Source: Actinomyces oris
GTDB taxonomy: Bacteria > Actinomycetota > Actinomycetes > Actinomycetales > Actinomycetaceae
NCBI RefSeq assembly: GCF_001929375.1
Contig: NZ_MSGO01000024.1
Span: forward strand, 1-32,207
DNA: 32,207 bases
Reading direction: 5' to 3'
The position numbers and the translations under genes were made by a program. Position 1 is the stretch's first letter. Each line of letters starts with the position of its first letter. Shown here in pieces: positions 11,592 to 29,385 of the stretch. The notes beneath the pieces were generated by a model, which did not search any database, was not told the origin of the DNA, and was given only the letters and a program-made list of their open reading frames with translations.

Positions 11592-12464
11592 TCATAGGAC
11601 CACCATCGCAAGGGTCCCGCCGACCAGCAGCACCAGCCCCACGAGGTACCGCCTGCTGACGGCCTCCCGTAGGACGAGGGCGGAGAAGAGGACGGTGACC
11701 AGGACGCTCAGCTTGTCGATGGGGACGACCACGCTGGCCGGGCCGTCCTGCAGTGCCCGGTAGTAGCAGAGCCAGGAGGCACACGTGGCAGCCCCGGAGC
11801 CCAGGACGAAGCCGAGCTCACCACGCGGCACGGCATGAACCTCCCGGAGCTTGCCGGTGACGGCCACCATCACCCAGGCCATCACCAGGACCACCCCCGT
11901 GCGGATCGCGGTACCGAGGTTGGACTCCACCCCGGTGATGCCGGCCTTACCGAGGATCGCGGTGAGCGCGGCGAAGAAGGCTGAGCCGAGCGCATAGAGC
12001 AGCCAACCTCCGCCGTTGCGCACGGCCCGGGGCAAGCCACGCAGGTCATCGGCGTCAAGCATCAACAACGTCCCGACAGCGATCAGAGCCACTCCGAGCG
12101 CCCCAACGAGGCTCACCCGCTCCCCCAGGAACATGAGGGCCAGCAGCACCGTCAGCACCGTGCTCAGCTTGTCGATCGGCACCACCTTGCTGACGCTGCC
12201 GAGCTGGAGCGCCTTGAAGTAGCACAGCCAGGAGGCCCCGGTCGCGAGTCCCGAGAGCACCAGCAGCCCAGTGCTGCGGGCGTCGAGGTGGGCCAGTTCG
12301 GACTGCGAGCCAACGACGAGCACCATGCCCCAGGCGCCCGCCAGCACCACAACAGTGCGCAGCGCCGTCGCCACGGTCGAGTCCGTGGTACGGATCCCCT
12401 CCTTGGCCAGAACAGCGGTGATGCCGGCAAAAAGCGCTGAGCCGCAGGCGAAGACGATCCACAT
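11592..12464 (-). CDS. EamA/DMT-type transporter, tandem duplication of a 140-residue unit
   Basis: This 290-residue, highly hydrophobic protein has about ten transmembrane segments in two homologous halves. Each half carries the same signature: ASWLCYFKALQLGSVSKV then VPIDKLSTVLTVL in the first, and ASWLCYYRALQDGPASVV then VPIDKLSVLVTVL in the second. Many bacteria encode this family as a single 140-residue, five-helix EamA protein; here two units are fused. Substrates of such drug/metabolite-superfamily exporters are mostly unknown. ATG 12464 is chosen because it opens directly into the first helix. It lies 87 bases downstream of the ABC permease gene on the same strand and may share its transcript. 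Confidence 0.85.
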   Translation of the reverse strand: MWIVFACGSALFAGITAVLAKEGIRTTDSTVATALRTVVVLAGAWGMVLVVGSQSELAHLDARSTGLLVLSGLATGASWLCYFKALQLGSVSKVVPIDKLSTVLTVLLALMFLGERVSLVGALGVALIAVGTLLMLDADDLRGLPRAVRNGGGWLLYALGSAFFAALTAILGKAGITGVESNLGTAIRTGVVLVMAWVMVAVTGKLREVHAVPRGELGFVLGSGAATCASWLCYYRALQDGPASVVVPIDKLSVLVTVLFSALVLREAVSRRYLVGLVLLVGGTLAMVVL

Positions 12465-25782: not shown

Positions 25783-25823
25783 AGCCGCCCCCCTCGATTC
25801 CACCCAGATATTGACCTACCGTC

Positions 25824-25852
25824 AGTCTACTGCATCATCCGCTCAGCGTGAA
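25824..25852 (-). promoter_or_regulatory. Possible promoter of the GRAM-like gene
   Basis: On the minus strand TTCACG (25852-25847) and TAGACT (25829-25824) are separated by exactly 17 bases, each with four of six consensus matches. The predicted start point lies about 35 bases before GTG 25782. Confidence 0.35.
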
Positions 25853-25883
25853 TGGGCAGAACCCGCCCCGCAACACACGGACT

Positions 25884-25898
25884 CGCTCTTCAAGAGCG
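25884..25898. repeat. Perfect 7-bp inverted repeat
   Basis: CGCTCTT and AAGAGCG flank a single C in the otherwise gene-free stretch 25853-25999. It could be a hairpin or an operator. The rest of that stretch shows nothing I can name. Confidence 0.4.
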
Positions 25899-25999
25899 GA
25901 CACCCTCTCCGGACCACTCCACGACAGGCCGCCGCTGCCGTAGGGACAGAGGCTGGGGCCGTCCCGGCTGCTGCGGTGTCCAGGCGCTGACTCACTGGA

Positions 26000-26122
26000 C
26001 GGCGCGCGGGTGACGGTGCCGGTCATGAGACGGCCGCCGCGCAGGGCGAGGACCGCCCACCCCCTTGAGGCAGCACCACACGGAGGAAGCCCGTCGGCCA
26101 CGAAACCCAACAACGACAAGCT
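26000..26122 (-). pseudogene. Degenerate second copy of the hemW 3' end
   Basis: This stretch aligns with the last 120 or so bases of hemW (about 28109-28228). Both contain GGCGCG..GGTGACGGTG, then CATGAG.CGGCC and GAGGACCGCCC. Read on the minus strand it gives LGFVADGLPPCGAASRGW, then AVLALRGGRLMTGTVTRA, against the intact AGLVADGLLDAAAAVRGR, then AVLTLRGRLMADTVTRA. A two-base insertion near the end removes the original stop. A longer open frame covers this segment (25835-26317), but its remainder is not protein-like. It appears to be the displaced old end of hemW left behind by insertion of the 26237-28071 gene pair. Confidence 0.75.
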
Positions 26123-26236
26123 CGCCACCTTGATCACACAGCAGCGACGAGCAGCCTCCTGTCGCTTCCGGTCCTGAGCGCTCATCTGTGGTAACTTCTG
26201 GTTCCGTCCACTCGTTCGCGACTCCGGGAGGCCCTC

Positions 26237-26947
26237 GTGACTCAGCCCACGACACAGTTGCCACGCGCACCACGCGCACGAGTCATCACCGGAACGGAGG
26301 CCGAGCAGGAGCTCCACGCGATGGGCCTGTCCCCCTCCAGCCTCACTCGGCCCTGCGTTGAGGGGCTGCAGAGCGCAGTCGCCGGCTACTCACCTTTCGA
26401 GCCGGCGATCTCCTTCGGGTTCTCCATCTGGTCGAAAATCGTGGGAGCGCTGCGCAAACAGCTCGACAAGGAGGGCTGGAAGCACCATGACATCGCCAAC
26501 GCTCCCCGATCAGTCAGCCCGGACGGAACCATGGCGATCGCAGCAGTTGGCGGCGACTCACAGACTGCTCACGCGGATGGCGACCCGCGCAACGCACGCA
26601 CCAAAGGCCCCAGATTCGCCAATGAGGTCGAAAACAACGCAGTAAAGAGTGGCGCTCCGCGATACACGCAGTGTCGGCTCGACCTCGGAGCGGGCGATGA
26701 GGATACAGCTTTCGCCAACCTGCAGACCTGGATCCTGCTCTACTTCTGGGACCGAACCAGAAATGAGTTACGCCTGGAGCTGTCACTGCCGATAGACTGC
26801 GACAAGGGCTTCGTCACCCAGTGGGAGACACGATTCATTCTTCCCGTGCAGGACCTTTCAGGACATACCGACTTGTCTTCCGATGACGACGTGCGGCCCT
26901 ACGCAGCCACGCAGGACGTGGACTTCGAGATCACCGCTATCTCATGA
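26237..26947 (+). CDS. Unknown protein paired with XRE/ImmA-IrrE peptidase
   Basis: I do not recognise a domain in this 236-residue protein. It starts at GTG 26237 with GGGAGG seven bases upstream. The N-terminus is Pro/Arg-rich (LPRAPRARVITGTEAEQEL), followed by FGFSIWSKIVGALRKQL and a polar middle with KGPRFANEVENNAVKSG. A final part of alternating hydrophobic strands (ANLQTWILLYFWD, then LRLELSLPIDCD and WETRFILPVQDL) ends in DVDFEITAIS. There is no signal peptide or membrane helix. Its stop overlaps the next start (ATGA), so the two proteins are co-translated. By analogy with other HTH-ImmA pairs it could be a toxin, a protease substrate, or a sensor; this is inference only. Codon use is less G+C-biased than the core genes. 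Confidence 0.75.
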   Translation: MTQPTTQLPRAPRARVITGTEAEQELHAMGLSPSSLTRPCVEGLQSAVAGYSPFEPAISFGFSIWSKIVGALRKQLDKEGWKHHDIANAPRSVSPDGTMAIAAVGGDSQTAHADGDPRNARTKGPRFANEVENNAVKSGAPRYTQCRLDLGAGDEDTAFANLQTWILLYFWDRTRNELRLELSLPIDCDKGFVTQWETRFILPVQDLSGHTDLSSDDDVRPYAATQDVDFEITAIS

Positions 26948-28071
26948 CGCTTGAGGCATCGCGAGTCATCCTGGCCAGGCAGAGGGCAGGACTGTCCAAG
27001 TCAGCGCTGGCCCACAAAGCGGGGACGACACCTCGTACAGTGACAACATGGGAGTCTGTGGGACCCCCCGCATCAAGGTTGCATCAGATCGCCACCATCA
27101 CAGGCATGCCGCCTGAGTTCTTCTCAGTCGAGGAGATTGACCTACTGGACGAGAAACAGGTGTTCTTCCGGGCACGACGACGTTCTCCATCCGTCTTACT
27201 GCGTCGTTCAACAGCATTCGGAGCACTGGGCGTCGAGTTCTACAGGTCCATCTCCAAACACTTTATGACACCCGCCCTCAGCCTGCTCGACACCGAGTCT
27301 CGTAACTCACCTCAAGAGGCGGCTATGGCTCTGCGTCTAGCATGGGGAATGGGACAGGAACCTGTTCCCAACCTGGTGCAGATGGCTGAGGCTCACGGCA
27401 TCAGGGTCCTCGGGATTCCGCTGGCGGATGTCAAAGTGGATGCCTTCAGTTTCTGGTCGGCGGAGGGGCGCCCCTTCATCTTCCTGTCCCGCGTCAAGAC
27501 AGCGGAGCGTTCACGCTTCGATCTAGCACACGAGATCGGACATTTGATACTCCACTCGGATGTCACCAGAACCGAAGAGGTGACAGACCGGCAGATCGAA
27601 CATGAGGCGAATATTTTTGCCGCCGAGTTCCTGCTTCCCACAGAGTCCTTGCGCGCCAAGCTGTCAAGCCCTCCGTCACTCGACACCCTGATGAAGATCA
27701 AAATCACCTACGGGACATCGGCCATCGCAACGGCGCGCTCTATCTACGACGCAGGAGTGTTGTCGGACTGGGGATACCGGCAGATGCTCGCTACGCTCAC
27801 CACACGAGGCTTCCATCAAGGGGAGCCGGGCAGCACACTCCCCTATGAGAAATCACGGGTCTTCAGCACAGTCAATGATCATCTGAGGTCTCGGGGACTC
27901 TCAGTCTCAGACTGGGCTAGGACAATCGGTCAACGTCCTGACGACGTTACTGGTTTTATGCTCGGCCAAGCGCTTCACGCAGCCCCGGATACGGGCACGG
28001 AATCCATTTTTGAGAATTCAGGCAGCGAGGAGCACCCGACTGTCAGACCAAGACTTCAGATTGTGAAGTAG
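26944..28071 (+). CDS. XRE-family HTH / ImmA-IrrE metallopeptidase
   Basis: The 375-residue protein has an N-terminal XRE-type helix-turn-helix (about 5-60, LARQRAGLSKSALAHKAGT then TVTTWESVG), a linker, and an ImmA/IrrE (COG2856) zinc-peptidase domain with FDLAHEIGHLILH (HEIGH at 196-200) and the downstream ligand region IEHEANIFAAEFLLP (E221). About 80 residues beyond the usual domain end form a C-terminal extension with a possible second HTH-like stretch (RSRGLSVSDWARTIGQRPDD). Related proteins cleave repressors to induce mobile elements (ImmA), respond to damage in Deinococcus (IrrE), or act as antitoxins. Its ATG lies in the stop of the preceding unknown gene. It ends 28 bases from the converging hemW stop. 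Confidence 0.9.
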   Translation: MTLEASRVILARQRAGLSKSALAHKAGTTPRTVTTWESVGPPASRLHQIATITGMPPEFFSVEEIDLLDEKQVFFRARRRSPSVLLRRSTAFGALGVEFYRSISKHFMTPALSLLDTESRNSPQEAAMALRLAWGMGQEPVPNLVQMAEAHGIRVLGIPLADVKVDAFSFWSAEGRPFIFLSRVKTAERSRFDLAHEIGHLILHSDVTRTEEVTDRQIEHEANIFAAEFLLPTESLRAKLSSPPSLDTLMKIKITYGTSAIATARSIYDAGVLSDWGYRQMLATLTTRGFHQGEPGSTLPYEKSRVFSTVNDHLRSRGLSVSDWARTIGQRPDDVTGFMLGQALHAAPDTGTESIFENSGSEEHPTVRPRLQIVK

Positions 28072-28098
28072 TTCAGTTCAGCAGTACCTGGGTTGGGT

Positions 28099-29385
28099 TC
28101 ATCGGGTCAGGGCGCGGGTGACGGTGTCGGCCATGAGGCGGCCTCGCAGGGTGAGGACCGCCCGGCCCCGCACGGCCGCAGCGGCGTCGAGGAGTCCATC
28201 GGCCACGAGACCGGCCACGACGGGCACCAGGTGCGGCGGGGTGGCTTCGGCAGCATCAGGCCGGTGTGCTGATGGGCCACCCGGCAGGTTCCCGAGGCTC
28301 GCCAGCTCGATGCCCTCACGCAGGCGGATGCCCAGCATGATCCGCTCCAGCTCGCGGGAGTCGGCGTCGATGACCTCGTGCCCGGCCACGGGCAGGTGGT
28401 CGGTGGCGATCTGCCCGGCCCAGGCAACCGGGTGCTTGGTGTTCCACAGGCGCACGTCCCCCAGGTGGGAGTGGGCTCCGGGTCCCGCGCCCCACCAGTC
28501 CCAGTCGAGCCAGTAGGCCCGGTTGTGGCGGCACTCGGCGCCGGGCCGAGCCCAGTTGGAGAGCTCGTACCACTCGTAGCCGGCCTGGCGCAGGGCGGTA
28601 TCGGCCATCTCGTACTTGGTGGCCTCGTCGTCGTCCTCGGGCATCGGGAGCTCTCCGCGGCGGACCTGCCCCCACATGCGAGTGCCCTCCTCGATGACCA
28701 GGGCGTAGGCGCTCACGTGGTCCGGGCCGATGAGGGTCACCTCGTCCAGGGAGCGCCTCCAGTCCTCGAGGGACTCCCCCGGCGCCCCGTAGATGAGGTC
28801 CAGGGAGGTGCTCAGGCCGGCCCGCCGCGCCCACTCCACCACGCGGGGCACTCGGGCGGGCTCGTGGGTGCGCTCCAGGACCTTCAGCACGTGAGGCACG
28901 GCGGACTGCATGCCGAAGGAGACGCGGGTGAAACCGCCTTCGGACAGGGTCACCAGGCCGGCCTCGTCCACGGAGTCCGGGTTGGCCTCCGTCGTCACCT
29001 CCGCATCCGGAGCGAGCCCGAAGCACTCGCGCACCAGCTCCAGCATGCTCACCAGGTCGGAGGCGGGCAGCATGGTGGGGGTTCCTCCGCCCACAAAGAC
29101 GGTCTGGGCGGCGCGCACCGGCAGGCCCGCATCGCCCATGGCGCGGCGGGCGGCGCGCAGCTCGCCGGCGAGTGTTCCCACGAAGTCCTCGGCCGAGGCG
29201 CCCCGCCCCATGGTCAGGTTCGTGTAGGTGTTGAAGTCGCAGTATCCGCAACGCACCCGGCAGTAGGGAACGTGCAGGTACACCGAGAACGGGCGCTGAC
29301 CCCCGCCAGGAGCGGGCGCGGCCGCCTGCGCCGGCAGCTCCCCCATTCCCGGCAGGGGCTCACCCACCGGCTGGGCCGGGCTCAC
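28099..29385 (-). CDS. hemW: HemW-like radical SAM haem chaperone (formerly annotated as HemN-like)
   Basis: The 428-residue protein is a radical SAM enzyme with cluster motif CRVRCGYC (C42, C46, C49), followed by FVGGGTPTMLP and TTEANPDSVDEAGL, and the C-terminal HemN-type region with CRHNRAYW. The CxxxCxxC motif without the extra cysteine of true HemN fits HemW, which binds haem and delivers it to respiratory enzymes. GTG 29385 is chosen because it overlaps the stop of the MFS gene by four bases; the frame extends further upstream only inside that gene. The first 30 residues are Pro/Gly/Ala-rich. Its last 120 bases exist in a second, decayed copy at 26000-26122. In many actinobacteria hemW adjoins hrcA; here about 8 kb separates them. 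Confidence 0.92.
   Translation of the reverse strand: MSPAQPVGEPLPGMGELPAQAAAPAPGGGQRPFSVYLHVPYCRVRCGYCDFNTYTNLTMGRGASAEDFVGTLAGELRAARRAMGDAGLPVRAAQTVFVGGGTPTMLPASDLVSMLELVRECFGLAPDAEVTTEANPDSVDEAGLVTLSEGGFTRVSFGMQSAVPHVLKVLERTHEPARVPRVVEWARRAGLSTSLDLIYGAPGESLEDWRRSLDEVTLIGPDHVSAYALVIEEGTRMWGQVRRGELPMPEDDDEATKYEMADTALRQAGYEWYELSNWARPGAECRHNRAYWLDWDWWGAGPGAHSHLGDVRLWNTKHPVAWAGQIATDHLPVAGHEVIDADSRELERIMLGIRLREGIELASLGNLPGGPSAHRPDAAEATPPHLVPVVAGLVADGLLDAAAAVRGRAVLTLRGRLMADTVTRALTR

Follow-up and report, generated by a model that had tools for sequence, protein, structure and literature searches.

We analysed a 32,207-nt stretch of the Actinomyces oris genome (assembly GCF_001929375.1, contig NZ_MSGO01000024.1, positions 1 to 32,207 of the forward strand), hereafter the window, in which a two-gene RosmerTA-like toxin-antitoxin pair lies between two copies of the 3' end of hemW. 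The window genome is referred to as G000, and the other G numbers denote comparison genomes (49 genus genomes including G000, and 213 family genomes). Negative positions such as -118 are counted back from the hemW stop, and positive ones lie beyond it. The locus contains the following features.

25991..26112, minus strand: displaced, decayed old 3' end of hemW, about 122 nt with small insertions and deletions, native CAG-stop end kept.
26113..28217, no strand: the whole insert, about 2.1 kb, made up of one hemW-end repeat and rmrT-rmrA, as delimited by stop-to-stop distances and empty sites.
26113..26236, no strand: region 5' of rmrT within the insert, with no hemW similarity past the repeat.
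26237..26947, plus strand: rmrT, 236 aa, RosmerTA toxin homologue (PADLOC PDLC03935 RmrT, E 3.8e-50).
26944..28071, plus strand: rmrA, 375 aa, RosmerTA antitoxin homologue (PADLOC PDLC03949 RmrA, E 5.8e-108).
28072..28098, no strand: 27-nt gap between the stops of the convergent genes rmrA and hemW; this element sequence is also present in G022.
28099..28217, minus strand: attached hemW 3' end, the element-rebuilt copy, 119 nt, ending ALTR.
28099..29385, minus strand: hemW, radical SAM heme chaperone, the target gene (TIGR00539, E 3.2e-68, 230.5 bits, above cut-off).

A search for hemW gave a single match per genome in 49/49 genus genomes. When positions 25800-26400 were compared with 27900-28400 by blastn, the displaced and attached hemW ends aligned plus/plus with 75% identity over 112 nt (E 1e-17), pairing 25997-26107 with 28105-28212. 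This alignment had been suggested in a preliminary description of the window, which reported a degenerate counterpart of the hemW end in the same orientation. The repeat is confirmed, and only its positions needed a shift of 9-11 bases, to 28099-28217 for the attached and ~25991-26112 for the displaced copy. Searching the whole genome with the displaced segment returned only the segment itself and the hemW end (E 1.6e-12), and no third copy of the hemW end was found in the G000 genome. In a geometry-matched control, none of 280 random 120-nt window queries reached a score of 50, the best controls scoring 45 and 45. Chance similarity is ruled out by the E value, the single genomic partner and the 0/280 controls, and an assembly error by the same arrangement in the independent one-contig genome G022; nothing was found in favour of either, and we regard this explanation as extremely improbable. 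The outer edge of the repeat is sharp, and the 61 nt outside it matched no hemW better than shuffles did. A low-similarity extension of the repeat deeper into hemW was unsupported, as 134/200 and 120/200 dinucleotide shuffles scored equally high. The hemW-end repeat ranks second among the direct repeats of the window; the stronger one, at 11655-12461 (11655-12005 vs 12111-12461, 63% over 357 nt), is perhaps an internal domain duplication. The plus-strand gene pair described earlier between the copies is real, and so is its different base composition, the pair having 59% G+C, compared with 72% at the hemW end and 67% in the far flank.

From each of the other 48 genus genomes we took the 3' end of hemW with as much as 15 kb of the sequence that follows it. 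In G022 the same pair was present in the same place, with a displaced hemW end 92.4% identical to its attached counterpart over 119 nt (-118 to the stop). The distance from hemW stop to hemW stop was 2108 nt in G000 and 2096 nt in G022. The displaced end of G022 and its flank gave an unbroken alignment to the pair-less genome G001 (-113..+1951 of the hemW stop, 90%), and aligned likewise to the pair-less genomes G040 (-122..+1440, 87%) and G035 and G045 (both -113..+457, 80-81%). The displaced end and flank of G000 aligned without a break to pair-less G014 (-113 to +2688, 80%); its alignment to the nearest relatives G001, G020, and G021 was broken, because the sequence directly past the hemW stop differs. 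Since the alignments run unbroken across pair-less hemW stops, the pair-less relatives supply the empty site. The cassette-less Actinomyces genomes that the preliminary description proposed to look for were thus found (G001, G040, G035, G045, G014).

The terminus of hemW tells the two copies apart. The protein ends in ALTQ in 10/10 close pair-less relatives; both displaced copies keep CAG-stop, and both attached copies, in G000 and G022, end in ALTR. This identifies the displaced copy as the old end and the attached copy as one that came with the insert. The end that hemW now uses is the insert-borne one (ALTR); its native ALTQ end has been left beyond the pair. Almost certainly, in two Actinomyces species an insert of ~2.1 kb lies within the final 119 nt of hemW, and the displaced native end is decaying. 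The earlier proposal of an insertion at the hemW 3' end that rebuilt this end is therefore supported by the empty sites, the ALTQ/ALTR swap and G022, and the old end is decayed as proposed, the displaced copy having diverged while keeping its native CAG-stop.

The gap between rmrA and hemW was identical in 24/28 alignment columns between G000 and G022, and in the other 47 genomes the sequence after hemW gave no match to it that beat shuffles. On the other side, 26113-26163 is common to G022 only, among the 49 genus genomes, and 26164-26236 (~73 bp) matched at ~80% two RosmerTA loci elsewhere, in G009 and G031. The latter genomes (L134 and L135) have in common this RosmerTA locus, which is not near hemW, with 96.5% identity across 7.9 kb.

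From the matches of both proteins to the RmrT and RmrA models, the pair between the hemW-end copies is assigned as a putative RosmerTA toxin-antitoxin/defence system. rmrT and rmrA are adjacent plus-strand genes with a 4-nt overlap, and RmrA contains an ImmA/IrrE (M78) peptidase domain (PF06114, E 1.6e-23) and an XRE-type HTH_3 domain (E 1.5e-4, slightly below its cut-off). PMC10440598 describes the same toxin-first operon with an HTH and ImmA/IrrE antitoxin, phage defence by RosmerTA-type members, and a membrane-depolarising toxin of the phage Kita. On the basis of this family knowledge, the cargo would act against phages as a toxin-antitoxin pair, with RmrA holding RmrT in check. Judged by its proteins, it seems nothing unusual compared with known RosmerTA. 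A match to RmrT was present in 14/49 genus genomes and 18/213 family genomes, and a protein database yielded 33 RmrT-matching proteins at E <= 0.001, ~20 of which were 77-98% identical; one of these ~20 clusters is probably the window's own protein. The predicted fold of RmrT gave a weak lead to restriction-endonuclease-like proteins.

The two hemW ends in G022 were compared site by site. They differ at 9/119 sites, all of which lie outside a 72-nt identical core (-99..-28). The chance of such a core is ~0.0015, rising to 0.005-0.009 when the two terminus-swap sites are excluded. In the core, 3 alleles occur in both copies and are absent from 11 other close genomes (G000 and 10 relatives). At -115, -103, and -100, which lie 5' of the core, the displaced copy is unlike any of the 11 close genomes, and the attached copy at -4 and -3 is unlike the 10 pair-less relatives and like G000. 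If the core alleles are native, the switch to native sequence would fall between -100 and -83 in the displaced copy, and the switch to element sequence between -57 and -4 in the attached copy. One site-specific crossover would place both switches at a single point; on this reading the switch points do not coincide. The shared core with its private alleles appears to favour homologous exchange over one site-specific crossover. Arms that look host-type in the core and element-type at their opposite edges would fit either the integration of a circle with gap repair or later gene conversion between the arms. The displaced copy of G000 was too decayed to locate a crossover point.

We propose that the insert would enter, and could leave, through the ~119-nt hemW arm by homologous recombination, either as a circle that integrates by a Campbell-type crossover with gap repair, or with the arms undergoing gene conversion afterwards. 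The recombination machinery of the host would serve the insert, which would need no recombinase of its own, and loss of the insert by the homologous route would be scar-free. We consider this explanation as a whole somewhat more likely than not, and the odds of the homologous route, taken by itself, evenly balanced.

As the preliminary description noted, no integrase is visible: the insert holds two genes only, neither of which is a site-specific recombinase by open reading frames (ORFs), Pfam or PADLOC. This bears on classical site-specific integration, in which a larger ancestral element with a tyrosine or serine integrase and a replacement end would have inserted and then shed the integrase gene through an internal deletion, with attL and attR left behind. 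Its expected anatomy is present: the direct repeat stops at the stop codon, the element brings a gene end, and the outer edge is sharp. Tyrosine-recombinase matches at E <= 1e-5 number two per carrier, in G000 as in G022, which is the genus minimum, and these are presumably the housekeeping XerC and XerD. Each carrier also has one resolvase-family match, in a frame of ~700 codons; such matches, counted by similarity, occurred at least once in 7/7 genomes tested, including all 5 pair-less relatives among them. Moreover, a copy of the hemW end was found neither in phage records nor in plasmid records nor in a viral-contig pattern scan, at the sensitivity of those searches, and no RmrA relative was found in viral contigs at the sensitivity of that search. 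Since the G022 switch points appear not to coincide and its core carries private alleles, the plain site-specific footprint assumed in the preliminary description fits less well than homologous exchange, and we consider this route unlikely.

A route by homology-facilitated illegitimate recombination would likewise not need a recombinase. A linear donor carrying the 3' part of hemW and the pair would join homologously inside hemW and illegitimately at -118 of the recipient. PMC5361080 proposes such a route for effector modules of Vibrio cholerae, whose arrival pushes the old 3' ends further downstream, and notes that such events are rare. The 119-nt duplication requires a join upstream of the homologous crossover, which we take to be less usual than a deletion, and the identical junction in both carriers would imply one founding event or a chance repetition. 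We consider this route rather improbable.

The number of events was considered on phylogenetic trees. In a 14-genome tree of three gene regions, of which the piece 5' of hemW was barely alignable for G003 and G004 (47-49% identity), G000 grouped with G001, G020, and G021 (support 0.99) and G022 with G040 (0.77). In the nhaD-only tree, G022 stood beside the G000 group and G040 outside. The carriers are not sisters in either tree, which would fit two separate gains as well as a single gain followed by one or two losses. Because loss via the repeats would be scar-free, a pair-less relative is indistinguishable from one that never carried the pair. Third-position identity between G000 and G022 was 85% for rmrA, 83% for rmrT, 87% for hemW, and 91% for nhaD. 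The resemblance of rmrA to hemW in this respect speaks for a single old insertion, in the common ancestor of the close species, which G000 and G022 retained and which pair-less relatives such as G001, G020, G021 and, in most trees, G040 lost precisely, with no continuing mobility; two losses would suffice on the concatenated tree and one on the nhaD tree. This history has to accommodate displaced ends that are ~70% identical to their own hemW in G000 and 92% in G022, the latter with private shared alleles, so that, if the copies are equally old, gene conversion has to be assumed in G022. We consider it a tangible possibility, slightly on the doubtful side. It concerns the number of events and not the first mechanism, and it can be combined with insertion by homologous recombination.

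The interval between hemW and nhaD ranged from 148 bp to 13.5 kb in the 41/49 genomes where nhaD was reached. Its gene lists were obtained with a codon-bias ORF caller and are incomplete, as low-bias genes such as rmrT and rmrA of G000 are missed. RmrT homologues lay downstream of hemW in 5/14 RmrT-bearing genus genomes, namely G000, G022, G005, G032, and, in degenerate form, G028. Five of 15 RmrT loci were within 6.5 kb of hemW (P ~4e-9), or 3/13 when the two carriers were left out (P 2e-5), both values ignoring relatedness. Displaced hemW ends were detected by a C-terminal protein search in 2/49 genus genomes and 2/213 family genomes (205 with any match), both with the same pair. Matches of 59-80% to G+C-rich sequence downstream of hemW, which occur in many genomes, were not counted, because this protein search did not recover them. 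Candidate displaced ends in G006, G008, G016, and G042 (69-75% over 69-98 nt) were rejected, as all are inside nhaD. The hemW-nhaD interval is a variable locus, and the end-swapping footprint is so far particular to the RosmerTA insert. Thus the suggestion that hemW 3' ends are a cargo hotspot stands as regards the variability of the interval and the frequency of RmrT there, and not as regards displaced ends.

Several further observations concern this interval. The RmrT homologues of G005 (L084:9326-10060; PADLOC E 9.6e-47) and G032 (L093:3303-4181; PADLOC E 3.4e-42) are directly upstream of nhaD. No match to RmrA was found near either in the fetched stretch, and the convergent ORFs adjoining RmrT, of 165 aa in G005 and 202 aa in G032, have no Pfam match. 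In G028 (L096, 10273-11028; genome 82% complete), frame-broken, degenerate remnants of rmrT and rmrA lie between hemW and the next conserved gene, and hemW has an apparent frameshift near its end. A small accessory gene was present directly downstream of hemW in 8/12 close-group genomes (G001, G018, G022, where it lies beyond the displaced end, G030, G035, G039, G040, and G045) and was not found in the other 4. This set comprises a 123-aa protein 426-795 nt past the stop (161 aa as called in G045) and, in G022, G035, and G045, an ORF of 137-141 aa. The proteins may be read as glyoxalase/VOC-like and EVE-like. The set forms a second variable cargo near the same spot, the extra DNA of G001 relative to G014 spanning ~+2 to +1422. 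As for the ferrochelatase gene hemH, only its first and last parts matched in G022 (L054 ~4.9-5.2 kb), seemingly through an internal deletion, and its 3' part alone matched in G030.

Some results weigh against insertion by homologous recombination through a portable hemW arm. There are only two carriers, and the argument for exchange comes from one genome and three private sites. In that genome the displaced copy matches G030 at -114, deviates from all at -26 and matches only G035 at -15, and the attached copy at -27 matches only G039; several of the differences, including those at -27, -26, and -15, may be plain decay or private changes. A donor with the same alleles would mimic the exchange pattern, and later gene conversion could hide a single crossover point. 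An integrase could possibly have acted once and then been lost, or have come from a co-resident element, and no circle or excision was seen. The third-position identity of rmrA, which is close to that of hemW, makes no recent transfer between G000 and G022 visible and allows a single old insertion. Flanking direct repeats were also looked for around other RmrT loci, with a test that recovers the window's own repeat (76% over 105 nt). Among 12 RmrT loci outside hemW, 11 had none and no comparably close one was found; at the locus of G178, one 59-nt repeat match flanked the pair at a distance, ~6 kb away on the upstream side and 2 kb on the downstream side. By the same test, G005, G032, and G028, whose RmrT is downstream of hemW, also lack a flanking direct repeat. 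Gene-end repeats as a general habit of RosmerTA are rejected by these 12 loci and three genomes.

Integrative elements that enter the 3' end of a protein-coding gene and restore it are known, such as the guaA elements and e14 in icd. The hemW locus shares with them the gene-end direct repeat at both borders, the element-borne replacement end, the displaced old end and the empty site in relatives. It differs from them in that the insert is only 2.1 kb with two cargo genes and no integrase, the target is hemW, and G022 shows signs of exchange between the repeats. Other related systems are hotspots without integrases and minimal mobile elements, which turn over by recombination in flanking core genes. 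A case has already been made for cargo that lacks mobility genes and turns over through homologous recombination in the core genes around it (PMC5635113, PMC10250203), and the present locus likewise has variable cargo between core genes and lacks mobility genes. PMC10250203 proposes that exchange of this sort is free of a mobile-element scar, whereas the cargo described here brings a gene-end copy with it and leaves the displaced one behind. The loci of type VI secretion systems and rhs with displaced 3' ends are also similar, as a new module enters at a homologous anchor gene and the old 3' end moves downstream (PMC5361080). At hemW, in contrast, the anchor is a housekeeping gene whose function is unrelated to the cargo, the new protein end is nearly the same, and the other junction lies upstream, duplicating 119 nt.

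The type of cargo, insertion behind a gene with replacement of its end, and homologous turnover of cargo in core genes are thus already known. The new part is a recombinase-less two-gene insert that carries its own housekeeping-gene end, with signs of exchange between the copies. Many gene-turnover hotspots lack integrases, and the route by which they gain and lose cargo is unsettled. At this locus, the traces of one such event can be read at the level of bases, with an empty site, a swapped gene end, a displaced old end and a core common to both arms. This points to hemW as a place where a defence pair enters and makes the question testable in a laboratory strain of oral Actinomyces. We suggest, only tentatively and as a doubtful generalisation, that there is a class of integrase-free mini-elements that consist of a defence pair and a portable core-gene 3' end of ~120 nt, and that would use host homologous recombination for entry, exchange and scar-free exit, rebuilding the target each time. 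If the arm is indeed portable, very small defence cassettes could move without a mobility gene, and element finders based on integrases would miss them.

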